In this document: positions 1,477-19,749 of the stretch, piece after piece
How positions within the stretch are numbered: position 1 is the stretch's first letter
Layout: each line of letters opens with the position of its first letter
Assembly (NCBI GenBank): GCA_019429445.1
Contig: JAHYIW010000028.1
Coordinates: 1-36,132, forward strand
Direction of reading: 5' to 3'
DNA length: 36,132 nt
Origin: Desulfuromonadaceae bacterium
GTDB lineage: Bacteria; Desulfobacterota; Desulfuromonadia; Desulfuromonadales; JAHYIW01
Position numbers and translations under genes: made by a program
Notes under the pieces: generated by a model
Seen by the model: the letters and a program-made list of their open reading frames with translations, nothing else
The model's database searches: none
Told to the model about the DNA's origin: nothing

Positions 1477-1872
1477 TTCACCCACCCCCCAACCCCCTCC
1501 CGTCAAGGGAGGGGGAAAGGGACTTAGTTTACGCTACCTGCCAGCAACTCCCCCTTTTTTTCCCTCCCCCCCTGCGGGGGAGGGTTAGGGTGGGGGGGTA
1601 ATTTGCTGCTTCACCCACCCCCCCAACCCTCTCCCGTCAAGGGAGGGGGAAGTTTCTTCAAGCGGGAGGGAACCGCTGTGTGTCTCCCCCTGTCTTTTTC
1701 CCTCCCCCCCTGCGGGGGAGGGTTAGGGTGGGGGGGTAATTTGCTGCTTCACCCACCCCCCAACCCCCTCCCGTCAAGGGAGGGGGGAGTTTCTTCAAGC
1801 GGGAGGGAACCGCTGTGTGTCTCCCCCTGTCTTTTTCCCTCCCCCCTGCGGGGGAGGGTTAGGGTGGGGGGT
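1477..1872. repeat. Tandem GC-hairpin / G-quadruplex repeat units A, B and C
   Basis: Three tandem units lie at 1477-1609, 1610-1747 and 1748-1872. Each begins TTCACCCACCCCCC and contains hairpin 1; in unit A the arms are 1493-1501 and 1507-1515, 9 bp and perfect. A 40-55 bp spacer follows, then hairpin 2 (in unit A arms 1562-1570 and 1576-1584, 9 bp and perfect). Units A and B close with TAATTTGCTGC. The right half of each unit reads G5-A-G3-TTA-G3-T-G6 or G7 on the plus strand. The left half reads G3-A-G5-TT-G6-T-G3 (or a close variant) on the minus strand. Both are classical intramolecular G-quadruplex patterns. Unit A has one spacer type (ACGCTACCTGCCAGCAACTC); units B and C share another (TTCTTCAAGCGGGAGGGAAC). 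Unit C lacks the closing TAATTTGCTGC, and the DUF559 stop codon lies 3 bp beyond it. Confidence 0.9.
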
Positions 1873-1874
1873 AC

Positions 1875-2219
1875 TCACCTCAGGCACTCCCGCCTGATAA
1901 CCTCCAGCACACCCTCAATATTTTCCATTACGTCGTTGTTCCAAAATCGTAATACAATAAATCCGTTGGCGCGCAGACAGTCATCTCTCTTTTGATCGTA
2001 TTCATTCTTTTCCGCATGCTGTCCGCCGTCAAGCTCTATAACAATCCTTTTGTCAAAGGATATGAAGTCCACAATGTATGCTGCAACCGGCTGCTGTCGG
2101 CGAAACTTGATGCCTTCCAGTTGACTGTTTCTCAAATACCGCCATAAGAGACGCTCTGTGTCCGTGCTATTGTTTCTCAATTCTCTGGCAAATGCCTTAA
2201 GGGGACTCTGTGGTTTCAT
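1875..2219 (-). CDS. DUF559 (Vsr-like, PD-(D/E)XK superfamily) nuclease embedded in repeats
   Basis: This 114-residue protein has the DUF559 layout: an N-terminal helix (ARELRNNSTDTERLLWRYLR), then an F-R-R-Q core, D51 in 'VDF', the 'IELDGGQH' motif (E62, D64, H68), and 'GFIVLRFWNNDV' with W93. DUF559 belongs to the very-short-patch-repair endonuclease-like superfamily; the D51/E62/D64/H68 set matches the expected metal-binding and catalytic positions, so the enzyme appears intact. The frame could extend upstream to 2255, but those 12 codons are repeat sequence; the ATG at 2219 is preferred. A G-rich stretch of the repeat (GGGGGAAG) just upstream could serve as its ribosome-binding site. Base composition is visibly more AT-rich than the flanking genes, which suggests separate origin. 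Its substrate and biological role are not established. Confidence 0.85.
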   Translation of the reverse strand: MKPQSPLKAFARELRNNSTDTERLLWRYLRNSQLEGIKFRRQQPVAAYIVDFISFDKRIVIELDGGQHAEKNEYDQKRDDCLRANGFIVLRFWNNDVMENIEGVLEVIRRECLR

Positions 2220-2226
2220 TGCTTTC

Positions 2227-2532
2227 TTCCCCCACCCCTTAATCCCCTCCCGCAAGGGGAGGGGAAAGGGACTTGGTTTACGCTGCCTGCCAGCAACTCC
2301 CCCTTTTTTTCCCTCCCCCCTTGCGGGGGAGGGTTAGGGTGGGGGGTAATTTGCTGCTTCCCCCACCCCTTAATCCCCTCCCGTCAAGGGGAGGGGAAAG
2401 GGACTTGGTTTACGCTGCCTGCCAGCAACTCCCCCTGTCTTTTTCCCTCCCCCCTTGCGGGGGAGGGTTAGGGTGGGGGGTAATTTGCTGCTTCACCCAC
2501 CCCCCAACCCCCTCCCGTCAAGGGAGGGGGGC
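2227..2532. repeat. Tandem GC-hairpin / G-quadruplex repeat units D, E and partial F
   Basis: This continues the array on the other side of the DUF559 gene. Unit D is 2227-2357 and unit E is 2358-2491. Unit F (2492-2532) consists only of the left half with hairpin 1. D and E carry the same spacer type as unit A (GCTGCCTGCCAGCAACTC). Their left halves differ slightly (CCCCACCCCTTAATCCCCTC). Plus-strand four-G-tract motifs lie at 2325-2346 and 2459-2480. The array ends 16 bp before the stop codon of the upstream 951-aa gene, so in leftward transcripts it is the immediate 3' UTR of that gene. The hairpins could stabilise or terminate that mRNA, though no clear run of U follows them in the leftward direction. 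Confidence 0.88.
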
Positions 2533-2547
2533 TTTTCTCTCATCGCA

Positions 2548-5403
2548 CTACTGCCGGACCTTGACGCTGAAGGTCGCGGTCGCGCTGCTGGCAGGCGTCA
2601 GGGTGATGCCCGAGCAACTGAAGGTCGGGGCAGCGTATGCTGCCGTTCCCATGGTACAGGCGGGATTGGGAGTACCGGTAGCAACAGGGTACTGATCGGT
2701 GTACGCCGGCAAGCTGTCCTCAATGGTCAAGTTGTTAATATCTCCATTTCCTTGATTGGTGGCAGTCACCTGATACATGATGCATTCCCCCGGTTTGGCG
2801 TTGAGCTTGTTGGTGGTATAAAGAACATCAGCGGTACCGTCGCAATCAGCGTCAAGCGCCTGAGTTTTCTCCAGACGCACTTGACCGGTCAGCACGGTGG
2901 TGGTGTTGGTAATCGTGTTGCTGATAGTTCCGCAACCATCGGTTAGGTACCATGACACCACATCAACGGACCCGGCGGCTGCACCGGCCGGCGCAAACAC
3001 CTTGACCAGTCCCTTAAAGGTTTCACCCGGAGTGAATAAGTTGTCGTCGCCGTCTTGATATGTCATCGTGGGGCCTGAAAGGGGAATGTCTCCCGCGTCG
3101 ATCTGACCATTTCCGTTGACGTCAATATACATGACGAAGGTCCACCCCTGGCTCGCCAGGGATTGGGTTGTGGTGAAGGTGACCGTGTTTGGGTCGGCGG
3201 TGCAGGTGGTGTTGCCGGAGTTGGTCATGGCCTGTGAATAGACCACGGTGCCGCCCGCATAGATCTGACCGACGTTGTTGGGTGCCACTGAAATGCTCGG
3301 GACTAAATTTACGTCCACGGCATCCCACTTCCTATCATAAGCGCCGGTCGCCGCGGATTTGATCTGGAAGTAAACAGAGGTCTCGCCAGGCAGGGAGTCG
3401 GCGGGTACCGTCACCACGGCACAGACGGTGGTCTCGGCGCCGGCCGCCACGGGGCCAACATTGCTAATCGTCGAGCCGATAATGGAGCAGTTCTTTGCGC
3501 CGCTGATATCGGCGTGGAACTGCAGCGTCCAGCCAGCCGGGAGGTTGGTGGTCGGACTGAAGGCGGTGGAGCCGGAGTAGGTAAGGGCGTAGGTGTCAGG
3601 TATGCCGCCCTCGTTACGCACGAAAAGGGGGATGACAACAGATTTGCCTGGTTGAACCGAATAGCTTTTGGTGGCTGCAGCACCGATGGCATCCTGATTG
3701 ACGTTGGGATCAGCCGTGCCGGCACTGTTGGCCAGGTCCACCGTCGGCTCTTTCAGGCTGCCGACGCGGTCGTAGGTCGTGTTTGTTTTGGTGATATCAC
3801 CGACGGAGGTCGCCTTCTTCTCGAAGTCAAAAGGACCAGACGGGCAGCCGCCGCTACAGGCGCTTAGCGGCAGCGTAATTTTCATAAAGACAGTGAGGGA
3901 CTCACCGGGCGCCAGGGGGCCGGTGTCAGGGATGCCATCGCCGTTGGTGTCGAGTAGAGGCGCGCCGGTCGCCGTCCTTAAGAGCTGGTAGGAAGTGCCT
4001 ACGGGCCAGCTACTCGCAGGAGCCTGTGTGGCCGTAATATTGAAGGTATCGGTCGTGGTGCCGGTGTTCCAGACGACGTTGGGGAAAAATATTGGCTGAC
4101 CCAGGGTTGCTGCGGCCTCGTAAAGCAGGTCCGGGTTATCGGGAGAGTCTGTGTCTGTATTCACCGGTCGGGTGTTGACGCCGTCCGTCGGGACACCGCT
4201 TGCGTTCGTGCCGTCGTTCAGGACGACGCTGTAGCCGGGCAGGACGTTGTAGTACGACAGGTTGGTCTGGAAGGTGGCATCCGTGCTGTTGTCAGTTTCA
4301 TCGCCCGGTGTGGCGTCGATTCCGTACATGGCGGTGTTGGTCGTGGTGCTGACTCCGACCACGGCGGTATTTTCCACCAGGACCTGGAAGCTGATGCTGC
4401 TGGTCGTGTTGGCGCCGATATCGGCGATGGTGGCCGAAATGTTGGTAACGGTATCGGGATCGCTCCCCGTGGTACTTACAGAGTAACGTGCGGTCATGTC
4501 GCCACTGGTTTGGGCATTACCCGAAGCGTCCGTAAGCACCGTGTCGCCGCCGGCGCTCCACCTGCCGCTACCCGCAACATACTTGTAACCGGCTGTCGCG
4601 CCGGATCCGATCACGTCGTACAGAGCCAGATTTCCTGCTGTGCTGCCGACGTTCGTAAAGGCCAGCGTGTAGGTAAGCGTTACGCCGGTCGGCCCCTGAG
4701 TCGCGCTGATTCCCTTGGTGACCTGGAAGGCGGCGGCGGCCGTGACGGTCAGGGTGTCGGTGTTGGTCTTGACGTTGTCGCCAGTTTCACCGAAAGTCCC
4801 ATTTCCATTGCCGTCGTAAAGCGCCAGGGTGCTCCCCGTGGCGGTCACGGTGATCTGATCCGCACCAGTACTTCCTGACGGAACGGTCATGGCGACCACG
4901 AAGTCGTACGTGCCTCCCGGCGGCAGGCTGGGGGTGGTGAAGGTGCTGCCGAGGCCGGTTGCCAGCGGCACCGTGCCGTCGGGCACGCCGTCGCTGTTGG
5001 CGTCGAGAAAAATGTTGACGGTGGCGAAGTCGCTGTCTTCCGCACCGAAGTCGCTGGTTGACAGTACGAACGAGTCGTTGCCGTTACCGGTGTTGGTGAG
5101 GGTGTGGGGCATATAGACCGTATTGCCGACGGCGGCGGTCTTGGTGTTGTCCGTCACCAGGGTAAGGCTGCCGACCTGCAGCACGGTGGTTTCCACCAGG
5201 TTGGACGTGGTGGTCTGGGTCTGACCGCTGGCGTCGGTGTAGTTGGCGATGGCCTGGTTGCCGATGATCGACCCCGCGAGCGGTGTCGCCGCCATAACGG
5301 ATGCGGTCGCCGACAGGGACAGCAGCGCGAAAATGGCCAGGGCGCACCATTGCACGCCCGGGCCAGGCCGGCTAATAAAGGTTAATAGTTTGAAGTGTCT
5401 CAT
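2548..5403 (-). CDS. Large secreted DUF11-repeat surface protein
   Basis: The product is 951 residues. The ATG at 5403 is preceded by AAGGAG at good spacing. A signal peptide is visible at about residues 18-39 (hydrophobic, ending SVMAAT). The rest is a chain of beta-rich modules with DUF11-type cores, such as 'PHTLTNTGNGNDSF', 'LTYTLAFTNVGSTAGN', 'QAMTNSGNTTC' and 'MYQVTATNQGNGDINN'. Aspartate-rich calcium-type loops alternate with them: DANSDGVPDG, DTNGDGIPDTG, DVNGNGQIDAGD and DADCDGTAD. The C-terminus (ATFSVKVRQ) is the last strand of a DUF11 module; no LPXTG, PEP-CTERM or autotransporter barrel is visible, so anchoring is unclear. It lies between the 182-aa relative upstream and the repeat/nuclease block downstream, same strand. 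Likely an extracellular adhesin or surface-layer component; the exact role is unknown. Confidence 0.85.
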   Translation of the reverse strand: MRHFKLLTFISRPGPGVQWCALAIFALLSLSATASVMAATPLAGSIIGNQAIANYTDASGQTQTTTSNLVETTVLQVGSLTLVTDNTKTAAVGNTVYMPHTLTNTGNGNDSFVLSTSDFGAEDSDFATVNIFLDANSDGVPDGTVPLATGLGSTFTTPSLPPGGTYDFVVAMTVPSGSTGADQITVTATGSTLALYDGNGNGTFGETGDNVKTNTDTLTVTAAAAFQVTKGISATQGPTGVTLTYTLAFTNVGSTAGNLALYDVIGSGATAGYKYVAGSGRWSAGGDTVLTDASGNAQTSGDMTARYSVSTTGSDPDTVTNISATIADIGANTTSSISFQVLVENTAVVGVSTTTNTAMYGIDATPGDETDNSTDATFQTNLSYYNVLPGYSVVLNDGTNASGVPTDGVNTRPVNTDTDSPDNPDLLYEAAATLGQPIFFPNVVWNTGTTTDTFNITATQAPASSWPVGTSYQLLRTATGAPLLDTNGDGIPDTGPLAPGESLTVFMKITLPLSACSGGCPSGPFDFEKKATSVGDITKTNTTYDRVGSLKEPTVDLANSAGTADPNVNQDAIGAAATKSYSVQPGKSVVIPLFVRNEGGIPDTYALTYSGSTAFSPTTNLPAGWTLQFHADISGAKNCSIIGSTISNVGPVAAGAETTVCAVVTVPADSLPGETSVYFQIKSAATGAYDRKWDAVDVNLVPSISVAPNNVGQIYAGGTVVYSQAMTNSGNTTCTADPNTVTFTTTQSLASQGWTFVMYIDVNGNGQIDAGDIPLSGPTMTYQDGDDNLFTPGETFKGLVKVFAPAGAAAGSVDVVSWYLTDGCGTISNTITNTTTVLTGQVRLEKTQALDADCDGTADVLYTTNKLNAKPGECIMYQVTATNQGNGDINNLTIEDSLPAYTDQYPVATGTPNPACTMGTAAYAAPTFSCSGITLTPASSATATFSVKVRQ

Positions 5404-16905: not shown

Positions 16906-19749
16906 TTACAGTTTTGCCTTGACTTCTTCTATTTCAAAAAATTCAACGATATCACCAACCTTAATGTCATTGTAATTTTCGAGGCCAATACCGCACTCGT
17001 AATTGGTGGCAACTTCGCGGGCATCATCCTTGAATCGTTTCAGAGATGACAGTTTCCCGGTCCAGATAACAACATTGTCACGTAACAACCGTGCATGGGC
17101 ATTGCGGATGACTTTGCCGTCAATCACATAAGAACCGGCAATCGTCCCCACTTTCGAAACACTGAATGTGTCACGCACTGTAGCGCGGCCCAGATAGCGT
17201 TCTTCAAGTTTCGGAGCCAGCAGCCCTTCCATGGCATCACGCACGTCGGCAACGGCATCATAAATGATGTTGTAGAGACGAATATCGACCCCTTCTGTTT
17301 CGGCCAGAGAGTTCGCCTTCACTTCAGGGCGAACGTTGAAACCAAGCACAATGGCATCTGATGCCGCGGCCAGAGTCACGTCACTTTCGGTAATCCCGCC
17401 GACTGCGGTATGAATCACCACCAGGCGACAGGCGTCAGTTGACAGCTTCGCCAGAGATTCGCTGACGGCTTCAAGTGACCCCTGAACATCAGCCTTGATA
17501 ACAACCTTGAGTTCCTTGACATCGCCCAGTTGAATTCGCGCGTAAAGCTGATCGAGCGATATCTTGCTGTGCTTGGCCAGTTCCAGTTCGCGAATTTTTT
17601 GTTGACGGTGCTGCGCAACATCGCGTGCCGTCTTCTCGTCATCAAGCGCATTGAGGGTGTCTCCGGCATCAGGGACACCGGTCAGGCCGGTGACTTCAAC
17701 CGGACAAGACGGTCCAGCTTCCTGAAGCGGATTGCCGCGATCATCCAGCATCGTACGCACACGACCAAAATAGGCTCCGCCGACGATCGGATCGCCGACC
17801 TTCAACGTTCCTTCCTGAACCAGAATGGTCGAAACCGGCCCGCGACCCCGGTCAAGACGGGCCTCGACAATTGTGCCACTGGCGCGTTTTTTGGGGTTCG
17901 CCTTTAATTCAAGAACTTCAGCCTGGAGCAGGATCATCTCCAGCAATCCTTCCAGATTGGTTCTCATTTTAGCGGAAACTTCGGCAAATATTGTCTCGCC
18001 CCCCCACTCCTCCGGGACCAAGCCAAATTCATTCATCTCCTGCTTCACCCGATCCGGGTTCGCATTCGGTTTGTCGATTTTATTCACCGCGACAATAATC
18101 GGCACTCCAGCTGCCTTGGCGTGGTTGATGGCTTCTCTGGTCTGGGGCATTACCCCGTCATCCGCAGCAACAACAACGATAACAATATCTGTCACCTGCG
18201 CACCGCGGGCACGCATGGCGGTAAACGCCTCGTGACCTGGCGTGTCAAGGAATGTAATTTTACGCCCGTCAAGCTCAACCGAATAGGCACCGATATGCTG
18301 GGTGATTCCACCGGCCTCGCCATCGGTCACATTGGTGAGGCGGATAGCATCAAGCAGACTGGTTTTGCCGTGGTCAACATGCCCCATGATCGTCACTACC
18401 GCAGGGCGCTCTTCCATGTCCTCGATCTTTTCTTCCTCGACCCCCTTGATGCTCGAATGCTCGATAATACTTACTTCATCAAAGGCCACATTCTCAACTT
18501 CATAATTAAATTCAGACGCCAGCAAGGCGGCAGTTTCGTAATCGAGAGGGTGGTTAATCGTCACCATCGAACCTTGACGTATCAATTCACGGATCAACTC
18601 GTTGGCCTTAACCCCCATCCGCTTGGCCAGTTCGCCAACGGTAATCGATTCGGAAATCTTGATAACCCGCTTGATCGCCTTGGAAACAGTAATCTCGGTT
18701 TTCTTGGTCTGTTTGGGTGATCGGCGCGCTTTACGGTGACGATCACCGCGATCCGGCTCATATACCTCACGACGTGTCTTGCGGGGGCCACCCTCAAAAT
18801 CAACACCGGGAGCACCCTTTGCTTTACTCTTCCTCTTTTTCGAACGTTTACTGTCCTTCCCCTCAAGCTCATCGGTCGGAACCGGCATATTAGAGGGAGG
18901 GCCGGCAGGTCTGCCACCAGGGCCGGCAGGTCTGCCACCAGGGCCGGCAGGTCTGCCACCAGGACCGGCAGGTCTGCCACCAGGGCCGGCAGGTCTGCCA
19001 CCAGGGCCGGCAGGTCTGCCACCGGGACCGGCGGGTCTGCCACCAGGACCGGCGGGTCTGCCACCAGGGCCGGCAGGTCTGCCTCCAGGACCGGCAGGTC
19101 TGCCTCCAGCGGAACGTTCATGACGTTGCGGAGGCGGTGTCGGTTGCGGCAATTCGACCCGTCCAAGGATTTTTGCATGAGAGGAAGAGGGTCGCTCTTT
19201 GGCCTTTGCAGCGGGAGTTTTGGTTGCGCCCGGATCCGTTTTCTGCGTTTTCGGTACCGTTTCCGAAACTTCAACAGCAGTCTGAACATCCGCTGGCGGT
19301 GTCTTGATTTCAACCACAGGTTCAGAAACAGGGGCGTCTCCGACCGATTTCTTGACGGGCTTTTTCTCGGTAGCAGCGTCCTTAGCCGGAATCGTCGTCA
19401 GCGTTTCATCAATTGACGTTCTTTCTGCCGCGGACTCATCAGCGGTCACTGGTGTTGCTGCTTCTTTCGGTGCGGCAGCTACCGGTGTCTCAACAATTGC
19501 TTCATCCGGCGGCGGAACTTCGCGCCGACGTCGACGAATGATCCCTGAATTGATACGCTGTTCTTCTACTTTTTCGACCTTTTCCACGCTGTGTGCCAAG
19601 ATCTCTTCCTTGACGCGCTTCACGTCATCAACCTCCAAAGAACTCGCCGAGGTTTTGGCGGGGATATCCAGTGTTGCCAGTTTTTCCAGCAACTCCTTGT
19701 TTTCAATCCCCAGTTCTTGCGCCAGCTGTTGTACTTTGATCTTGCCCAT
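16906..19749 (-). CDS. infB: Translation initiation factor IF-2
   Basis: The product is 947 residues. IF-2 is the GTPase that brings fMet-tRNA to the 30S subunit and promotes 50S joining. The start is '[20 protein letters not shown]' (IF2_N). A long disordered N-terminal region follows, including ten identical GGRPAGP units (about residues 215-284). A second IF2_N-like segment is '[18 protein letters not shown]'. G-domain motifs are '[11 protein letters not shown]' (about residues 453-463), 'DTPGHEAF' and 'NKID'. Domains II-IV follow, ending '[11 protein letters not shown]'. The ATG shares one base with the ylxRQ stop (TAATG). Confidence 0.97.
18898..19107 (-). repeat. Ten tandem 21-bp repeats in infB (GGRPAGP heptapeptide)
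   Basis: Ten consecutive 21-bp units encode exactly GGRPAGP each. Units differ only at synonymous positions (for example GGC/GGT and CCA/CCG/CCT changes). They lie in the flexible N-terminal region of IF-2. The same stretch is open in other frames, giving spurious antisense frames. Confidence 0.95.

Follow-up and report, generated by a model that had tools for sequence, protein, structure and literature searches.

Inverted hairpin repeats of a predicted triplex type accompany DUF559 nuclease genes: a candidate mobile element

At positions 1477-2532 of the window (i.e. the whole 36,132-nucleotide stretch of Desulfuromonadaceae DNA analysed here) a single gene for a DUF559 protein lies amid five and a half repeat units, which raises the question of whether gene and repeats belong together. 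The coordinates of the features bore out the arrangement described in a sequence-only reading of the locus (Table 1). Units A, B and C are followed by the gene, by units D and E and by the half unit F. The stop codon lies ~3 bp from the end of unit C and the ATG 8 bp from unit D. The linker TAATTTGCTGC is present four times (after A, B, D and E), and between C and D the gene takes its place. The gene is also low in GC (46.1%), compared with 54.9% in the window as a whole and 60.0% and 65.3% in the two neighbouring stretches. The repeat unit had been described as a hairpin. Hairpins are indeed present, but each full unit is an inverted pair of two, laid out as third strand, hairpin, spacer, inverted hairpin and third strand, with one spacer type in A, D and E and another in B and C. 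The 36-kb window contains ten pyrimidine-arm hairpins, every one within 1493-2530. As single strands, the five full units fold better than their dinucleotide shuffles (z -2.9 to -4.8), with 0, 0, 0, 1 and 2 of 200 shuffles folding as well. A known RNA family at 1300-2700 was considered and rejected: there were 122 Rfam matches at E up to 1, all listed ones below the curated score of the family and mostly microRNA models on GC-rich hairpins, which we took as chance.

Table 1. Positions of the DUF559 gene, repeat units, third strands and linkers in the window.
Feature	Position	Strand	Description
Unit A	1480..1598	+	hairpin 1493-1515, spacer type 1, inverted hairpin 1562-1584; third strand at each end
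Linker TAATTTGCTGC, A-B	1599..1609	+	further copies 1737-1747 (B-C), 2347-2357 (D-E), 2481-2491 (E-F)
Unit B	1613..1736	+	spacer type 2
Unit C	1750..1872	+	spacer type 2
Gene-facing third strand, downstream side of DUF559 gene	1859..1872		TTAGGGTGGGGGG on + strand
DUF559 gene	1875..2219	-	114 aa; PF04480 145 bits; Vsr/homing-type PD-(D/E)XK nuclease
Gene-facing third strand, upstream side of DUF559 gene	2228..2242		C-rich on + strand; score 1.0
Unit D	2228..2346	+	spacer type 1; adjoins 5′ end of DUF559 gene
Unit E	2358..2480	+	spacer type 1
Half unit F	2494..2530	+	third strand and single hairpin 2508-2530

A search of 297 genomes of the phylum with PF04480 gave a match at E 0.001 in 107. Taking the listed matches as far as ~E 5e-23 yielded a phylum sample of 104 genes, each with flanks of up to 10 kb, selected independently of the repeats; the sample excluded weaker matches, which were mainly fragments or portions of large proteins. 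Hairpins were called where they were perfect, with a pyrimidine 5′ arm of 8 (at least 5 C) and a loop of 3-10. Within 100 bp of the DUF559 domain there were 6.37 hairpins per kb on the preceding side and 7.54 on the following side, falling to 0.07-0.19 per kb beyond 500 bp. Flanks of the full 300 bp were available for 97 DUF559 genes: 60 had a hairpin in each flank, 26 in a single flank and 11 in neither, against 13, 59 and 772 of 844 other genes of the same loci (Fisher P 9e-56, odds ratio about 100 for both sides). Short control genes (n = 281) had hairpins on both sides once and on one side 19 times. A second set comprised the best 80 of 546 relatives from named genomes; these are relatives of one DUF559 clade, mostly from metagenome bins, and their record titles include Proteobacteria, Chloroflexi, Spirochaetes, Omnitrophota and Nitrospirae. 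Among 76 of these genes, hairpins were found on both sides of 48, on one side of 18 and on neither side of 10, whilst 512 controls gave 1 with both and 22 with one. Purine-first hairpins totalled only 6 in the phylum set and 4 in the second set. Direct repeats across the gene, at a score of 25, were found for 23/97 DUF559 genes and 16/949 controls; since the elements are mostly inverted, this test was replaced by the hairpin test. In both sets, such hairpins flank DUF559 genes far more often than they flank the other genes of the same loci. The outcome named beforehand as counting against such a pairing, no enrichment or equal frequency beside other genes, did not arise. The proposal that the pairing resembles that of REP repeats with RAYT proteins is supported by this enrichment, and the match of repeat type, the co-mobility and the in-gene copies described below go beyond it.

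The architecture was examined wherever both sides of the gene had a hairpin (126 genes). The order hairpin, G-rich strand, gene, C-rich strand, hairpin is more frequent than any other, with 62/126 pairs having it exactly; 5 pairs have the opposite tag order and the remainder are mixed or sub-threshold, including 17 tagless on both sides. The loops on either side of the gene are reverse complements in 35 pairs, identical in 7 and different in 84. Hairpins lie at a median of 45 bp from the domain on the upstream side and 32 bp on the downstream side. The G-rich edges had been read as possible G-quadruplexes. We consider a quadruplex possible but an intrastrand triplex third strand the better fit, as the triplex rule accounts for both the sequence of the edge and its co-variation. 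Each G-rich strand was compared with its own purine arm under the antiparallel purine-motif rule (G on G; A or T on A). Gene-facing elements (n = 295) scored a mean of 0.854, with 220 at 0.85 or above, against a mean of 0.729 when third strands were swapped among loci (200 shuffles; sd 0.006, maximum 0.744). For the side facing away from the gene the mean was 0.537 and 40/293 reached at least 0.85. Both gene-facing elements of the window follow the rule with a score of 1.0, the downstream one matching its own hairpin arm at 9/9 tested positions. The upstream one may also serve as the ribosome-binding site of the DUF559 gene. The window hairpins are bordered by a C-rich strand ending TAA or TTAAT, and neither a GTAG nor a CGTC tag of the REP/RAYT type was found at their foot; in the other loci, too, the tag that usually faces the gene is C-rich.

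A sequence of this kind is already known from E. coli as the intrastrand triplex motif TMECO, earlier called BoxC and PIT element (Holder 2015, PMC4666352). According to the portion of that paper available to us, it consists of CCCTCNCCC, a loop, GGGNGAGGG, a 3-nt loop and GGGNGAGGG, occurs in inverted pairs too (23 copies and five inverted pairs in E. coli K-12) and forms a stable triplex in vitro. The same portion describes such repeats as widespread across bacteria and linked to instability. It ties the motif to no transposons, phages or plasmids, finds no common function among the neighbours and, for a repeat noticed in E. coli in the 1990s, leaves purpose and spread open. The words "nuclease", "endonuclease" and "ycjD" are absent from its main text. 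Neither a report of the DUF559-repeat pairing nor a named protein partner for the BoxC/PIT motif was found in the literature searched; subscription journals and bioRxiv fell mostly outside that scope and a prior report is possible. Judged by its sequence, the repeat unit of the window is a BoxC/PIT-type intrastrand triplex motif, with a triplex predicted to form.

Repeat type follows the clade of the protein. For the 169 of 184 genes having at least one arm, arm distance tracks DUF559 protein distance (Mantel r = 0.424), with none of 1000 permutations as high (maximum 0.108). In genomes with several DUF559 genes, the arm differed at 1.22 of 7 positions from that of the nearest relative elsewhere and at 3.21 from those of genome mates (n = 50: 43 better, 5 worse, 2 ties; Wilcoxon P = 1.6e-7). 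This match is partly expected if the gene and its ends are inherited as one piece; dispersed copies bear on action in trans. A tag-plus-arm pattern (C-type) occurs at 1,194 sites in 92/297 genomes, and its reversal at 1 site. C-type sites were present in 46/67 genomes in which DUF559 matched strongly (mean 13.5) and in 46/230 others (mean 1.25), the latter including 40 with a weak match. Within this group of 230, at least five sites were found in 20 genomes. Several genomes with no strong match (G057, G199, G156, G232, G083 and others) carry 16 to 31 C-type sites; in these the gene may have been lost, may have been missed in a draft, or may be replaced by another protein. Genomes were assigned by eye to the FYRQ and FRRQ types of DUF559. 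A second hairpin, CCCCCTTT/AAAGGGGG (T-type), occurs in 19/19 FYRQ-type DUF559 genomes (mean 64), 21/48 other DUF559 genomes (10.8) and 44/230 remaining genomes (2.3), against 45 sites counted from the listing for its reversed control, 35 of them in three genomes. T-type sites outnumber C-type sites in 10/10 FYRQ-only genomes and in 8/36 FRRQ-only genomes, with 13 ties. In one genome (G278) two tandem DUF559 genes, 91% identical, have T-type elements adjoining (L098:9385-10287).

These figures bear on the idea that such hairpins are simply common everywhere, a general intergenic feature met by chance beside DUF559. What is available of PMC4666352 does describe the repeats as widespread in bacteria. 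At the level of association the idea is contradicted by the same-locus controls (13/844 and 1/512), by the scarcity of purine-first hairpins and by the single reversed site against 1,194, and we give it a negligible probability.

We then compared what related copies share. Among 112 gene pairs with at least 70% identity, many have in common just the gene and ~40-80 bp on each side and nothing of the 2.6 kb flank; others are plainly vertical. In 47 pairs at 75% or more, a set that keeps at least six syntenic, tandem or several-hundred-base-sharing pairs, similarity stops at the outer edge of the hairpin (median 0 nt upstream, +2 nt downstream). Two copies in G258 are identical over 364 bases and diverge 21 nt past the hairpin into unrelated downstream DNA, in which 51 of the next 200 bases agree; both lie at draft contig ends. 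Two paralogues in G237 have the unit alone in common. The association of DUF559 genes with hairpins is thus, by computation, specific and accompanied by co-mobility. A comparison of empty and filled sites had been proposed, and one site could be set out. G104 has no DUF559 gene at the site occupied in G133 (225 against 901 bp between common flanks) and carries a copy 91% identical elsewhere in its genome, but the site has diverged and is not a base-exact empty one. Among the loci compared, we found no base-exact empty site, target duplication or movement event, and no close pair of filled and empty alleles. The locus on L118 has its flanks on different contigs in G133. For the window, a genome of the same order (G304) has a relative of the 951-aa gene next door at 43% identity, with <100 bp to the next gene (by eye) and no hairpin found there, against ~1.16 kb in the window. 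The only other same-genus genome in that search (G297) gave no match to the neighbour, hence there is no genus-level empty site. Four A. brasilense plasmids have one locus in common and are therefore uninformative on movement. Separately, a repeat of ~158 bp with TGTTCAAAAA and TTTTTCAACA ends lies ~120 bp downstream of DUF559 on L118 (10150-10307); it has dozens of copies in G133 and G104 and looks like a separate MITE-like family.

A nuclease that guards against or removes unstable triplex repeats, as part of housekeeping or repair, might adjoin them through regulation or selection and never move. Vsr is a repair enzyme (PMC1189080, in the part available), PMC12907096 (likewise in part) connects a DUF559 protein of Caulobacter with DNA damage and mismatch repair, and instability is associated with the repeats in the available part of PMC4666352. 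An enzyme acting genome-wide, however, needs no inverted copies on both sides within ~30-50 bp, and such co-selection does not require that relatives share just the gene plus hairpins. We consider it improbable.

Copies were also found inside other genes. Of 184 DUF559 genes, 11 lie in a frame open for at least 100 codons on each side, though some such frames arise by chance in GC-rich DNA. ValS (L179), PriA (L210), PrmA (L176, two stretches) and HsdR (L085) are recognised by family models on either side of DUF559; at the ValS copy the hairpin rule found no hairpin. In IspE (L192) and HsdS (L159, L171) the model matches one side and the other was read by eye. Alignment of HsdS of G155 and G248 with same-order relatives that lack the interruption, among them G204 from the same genus, revealed an insert of ~200 aa between conserved stretches, the relative picking up again only a few residues from where the right hairpin ends. 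HsdR of G286 contains a DUF559 unit and, apart from it, a gene-less hairpin pair; each of them keeps the frame and neither is present in two relatives. An in-frame stop falls within the DUF559 domain in 7/184.

Several in-frame copies lie in restriction-modification or DNA methylase genes (L085, L088, L104, L159, L171, L051, L058), the host in L051 and L058 being a DUF1156-type methylase as read by eye. Their position within restriction-modification genes would suit a defence or toxin-like cargo of a hotspot, in which the function of DUF559 is unrelated and the repeats merely attract insertions. PADLOC was run on three DUF559 proteins (those of the window and L142, and YcjD of E. coli) and gave only a weak DpdF fragment (16.1 bits) for the window protein, with no defence-family match across most of any of them; moreover, other genes of the same loci lack the pattern (13/844 and 1/512). 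A cargo of this kind is very unlikely. Cargo of phages or plasmids was also considered and is not the main habitat, the window protein matching 1/50,697 phage records (E up to 1e-10) and 31/72,556 plasmid records (E up to 1e-15), some of them chromosome-sized.

The structure model of the window protein (pLDDT 89.8) is closest to 3hrl, a solved DUF559 relative (Z 17.4), to I-Bth0305I (3r3p; Z 13.3, rmsd 2.3 over 91 aligned residues) and to Vsr (Z 10.7), in keeping with a Vsr-like catalytic fold. TnsA, at Z 7.2, is within the noise band, and absence of a family from these lists was not counted as exclusion. Residues E22, D51, E62, D64 and D75 are invariant in both DUF559 alignments and H68 in one, and nearly so in the other; given the usual make-up of Vsr-type sites, these six are putative catalytic residues. 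To our knowledge no nuclease of this fold joins DNA unaided. YcjD and Vsr have already been grouped in the PD-(D/E)XK superfamily (PMC1189080, available part).

The nearest characterised folds, a homing endonuclease (I-Bth0305I) and Vsr, suggest a different history, in which the repeats spread by other means and DUF559 targets them, copying its gene into existing arrays by break repair. On L117 (8394-10631, minus strand) DUF559 forms the central domain of an intein, whose C-terminal model scores 25.7 bits (cut-off 15.6), whose host looks like a DNA methylase and whose hairpins lie upstream only; this is a hint, from an independent direction, of homing-type activity of DUF559. Homing into repeats would also fit the window gene replacing a linker between two complete units, and the many genomes with repeats and no DUF559. 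It sits less well with repeat type tracking DUF559 clade across genomes, which dispersed copies do too, and with the HsdS, HsdR and PriA copies, which have gene and repeats where relatives have neither, although two steps are possible. We regard homing into repeats as unlikely, if the least so of the alternatives.

Within its own 2.9-Mb genome the unit of the window is confined to this locus, at the sensitivity of a BLAST search and a tag search. All 8 BLAST matches of the unit lie here, as do all 5 one-mismatch sites of the tag pattern (up to 2 mismatches allowed); two 2-mismatch sites lie elsewhere, against 3 sites for the reversed control. The T-type hairpin occurs at 3 sites. The second DUF559 gene of the genome, on C11, lies between hairpins of another type (CCCCTCC/GGAGGGG) in which an additional palindrome separates the arm from the outer strand. 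Its elements score only 0.71 and 0.43 in the triplex test, and the triplex rule is therefore not universal.

In E. coli K-12 the DUF559 protein is YcjD (ycjD, 1,351,407-1,351,760). Table 1 of PMC4666352, in the part available, places BoxC no. 9 at 1,351,204-1,351,239, which puts the motif 167 bp downstream of ycjD. A decayed hairpin overlaps the ycjD stop, and no BoxC was found on the other side of the gene. At least 80% of the ycjD region is held by 3,362/5,426 E. coli genomes. The sapF-fabI interval contains ycjD and BoxC in some strains and a TetR gene with an efflux module in others (L227, L228, L229; PMC12817139, available part). E. coli was therefore rejected as a clean empty site, as the two loci without ycjD that were examined (L228, L229) carry the TetR gene and efflux module there. 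Between alx and sstT (NC_000913; L262 against L263 and L264), two shorter aligned strains lack 75 bp comprising one hairpin of a BoxC pair, third strands and spacer; CCCTCTCCC direct repeats bound the stretch and the difference may be a deletion by slippage. At a second site, in one strain (L267), another gene occupies the place.

As a whole, these data are best explained by the locus being a copy of a mobile element made up of a DUF559 nuclease and triplex hairpin ends, to which we assign a probability of roughly 0.6. The locus would be one such copy, its gene bounded by inverted triplex-forming hairpins, and dispersed hairpin pairs (BoxC/PIT/TM repeats) would be gene-less derivatives. The repeat may fold to a hairpin or triplex whilst the DNA is single-stranded or extruded; DUF559 would recognise the folded repeat and nick or cut there; and host repair or replication would copy the ends elsewhere, either together with the gene or alone. 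In the genome of the window the unit would then have multiplied in tandem. The pairing, the usual order, the match of type to clade, the co-mobility to the outer hairpin edges and the in-gene copies are computed; action of DUF559 on the triplex, cleavage, transposition and the route of copying we infer. We also lean, by a small margin over even odds, towards the wider proposal that DUF559 genes are the missing autonomous partners of BoxC/PIT repeats, forming a new mobile class in which a Vsr-like nuclease reads triplex hairpin ends, moves itself and gene-less pairs, and persists in frame in essential genes since its ends are translatable. Several points count against the mobile-element reading: 11/97 and 10/76 DUF559 genes have no hairpin by our rule, no base-exact empty site, target duplication or movement event was found among the compared loci, the C11 triplex scores are weak, the window unit is not dispersed, and the BoxC of ycjD is one-sided. 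Further against it count the match of repeat type to protein being partly expected from inheritance as one piece, the 20 genomes with five or more C-type sites but no strong DUF559 match, and the fold not being known to join DNA by itself.

REP/REPIN repeats and their RAYT proteins are the closest parallel. They comprise short palindromes tagged on the outside, arranged in inverted pairs and dispersed between genes, together with a single gene that encodes a DNA-cutting protein and has inverted copies on its two sides (in part after PMC2817692 and PMC3733652). Here too inverted repeats flank the gene (60/97 and 48/76) with tags facing it (62/126, opposite in 5), and the repeat type is cognate to its partner. 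The protein, however, is PF04480 with a Vsr-like PD-(D/E)XK fold and not an HUH/Y1 tyrosine transposase, the tag is a C-rich triplex third strand rather than GTAG/CGTC, and copies occur in frame inside genes. With a protein other than the one that defines RAYTs, the system works like REP/RAYT yet falls outside that class. BoxC/PIT/TMECO repeats are the same kind of sequence in inverted pairs, but the available part of PMC4666352 reports no protein partner or link to mobile elements, whereas a partner is proposed here. Our analysis also widens the motif to arm types such as CCCCCTTT. I-Bth0305I and Vsr share the fold (Z 13.3 and 10.7) and the conserved acidic and histidine positions; the DUF559 protein, at only about 114 aa, is without an added DNA-binding domain, and we know of no case in which I-Bth0305I or Vsr is flanked by hairpin repeats of its own. 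Rickettsia palindromic elements are palindromic repeats inserted in frame in genes; they differ in sequence from the DUF559 element and are not known to contain a nuclease gene. IS200/IS605 elements are likewise small, with hairpin ends and a single small enzyme (in part after PMC6006769), but that enzyme is an HUH Y1 transposase, a motif that the DUF559 protein lacks.

What is new here is the joining of a repeat and a protein treated apart in the literature seen, although the pairing may have been reported elsewhere. The DUF559 family is large, its function is unknown and E. coli K-12 itself has a member, YcjD; its link to BoxC gives the repeats a testable origin and the enzyme a testable substrate. 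If the proposal holds, the element may represent a class of mobile DNA that dispenses with the usual transposase chemistries. The proposal would also account for proline-rich in-frame inserts in bacterial proteins and provide a natural enzyme that may read triplex DNA.

Lastly, two observations concern the surrounding genes of the window. The frames flanking the locus (314-1336 and 2548-5403, minus strand) encode related surface-type proteins with 30% identity over 14-359, the second being of DUF11/DUF7927 type. Further away, an IF-2-like ORF (16906-19749, minus strand) contains a run of GGRPAGP repeats.
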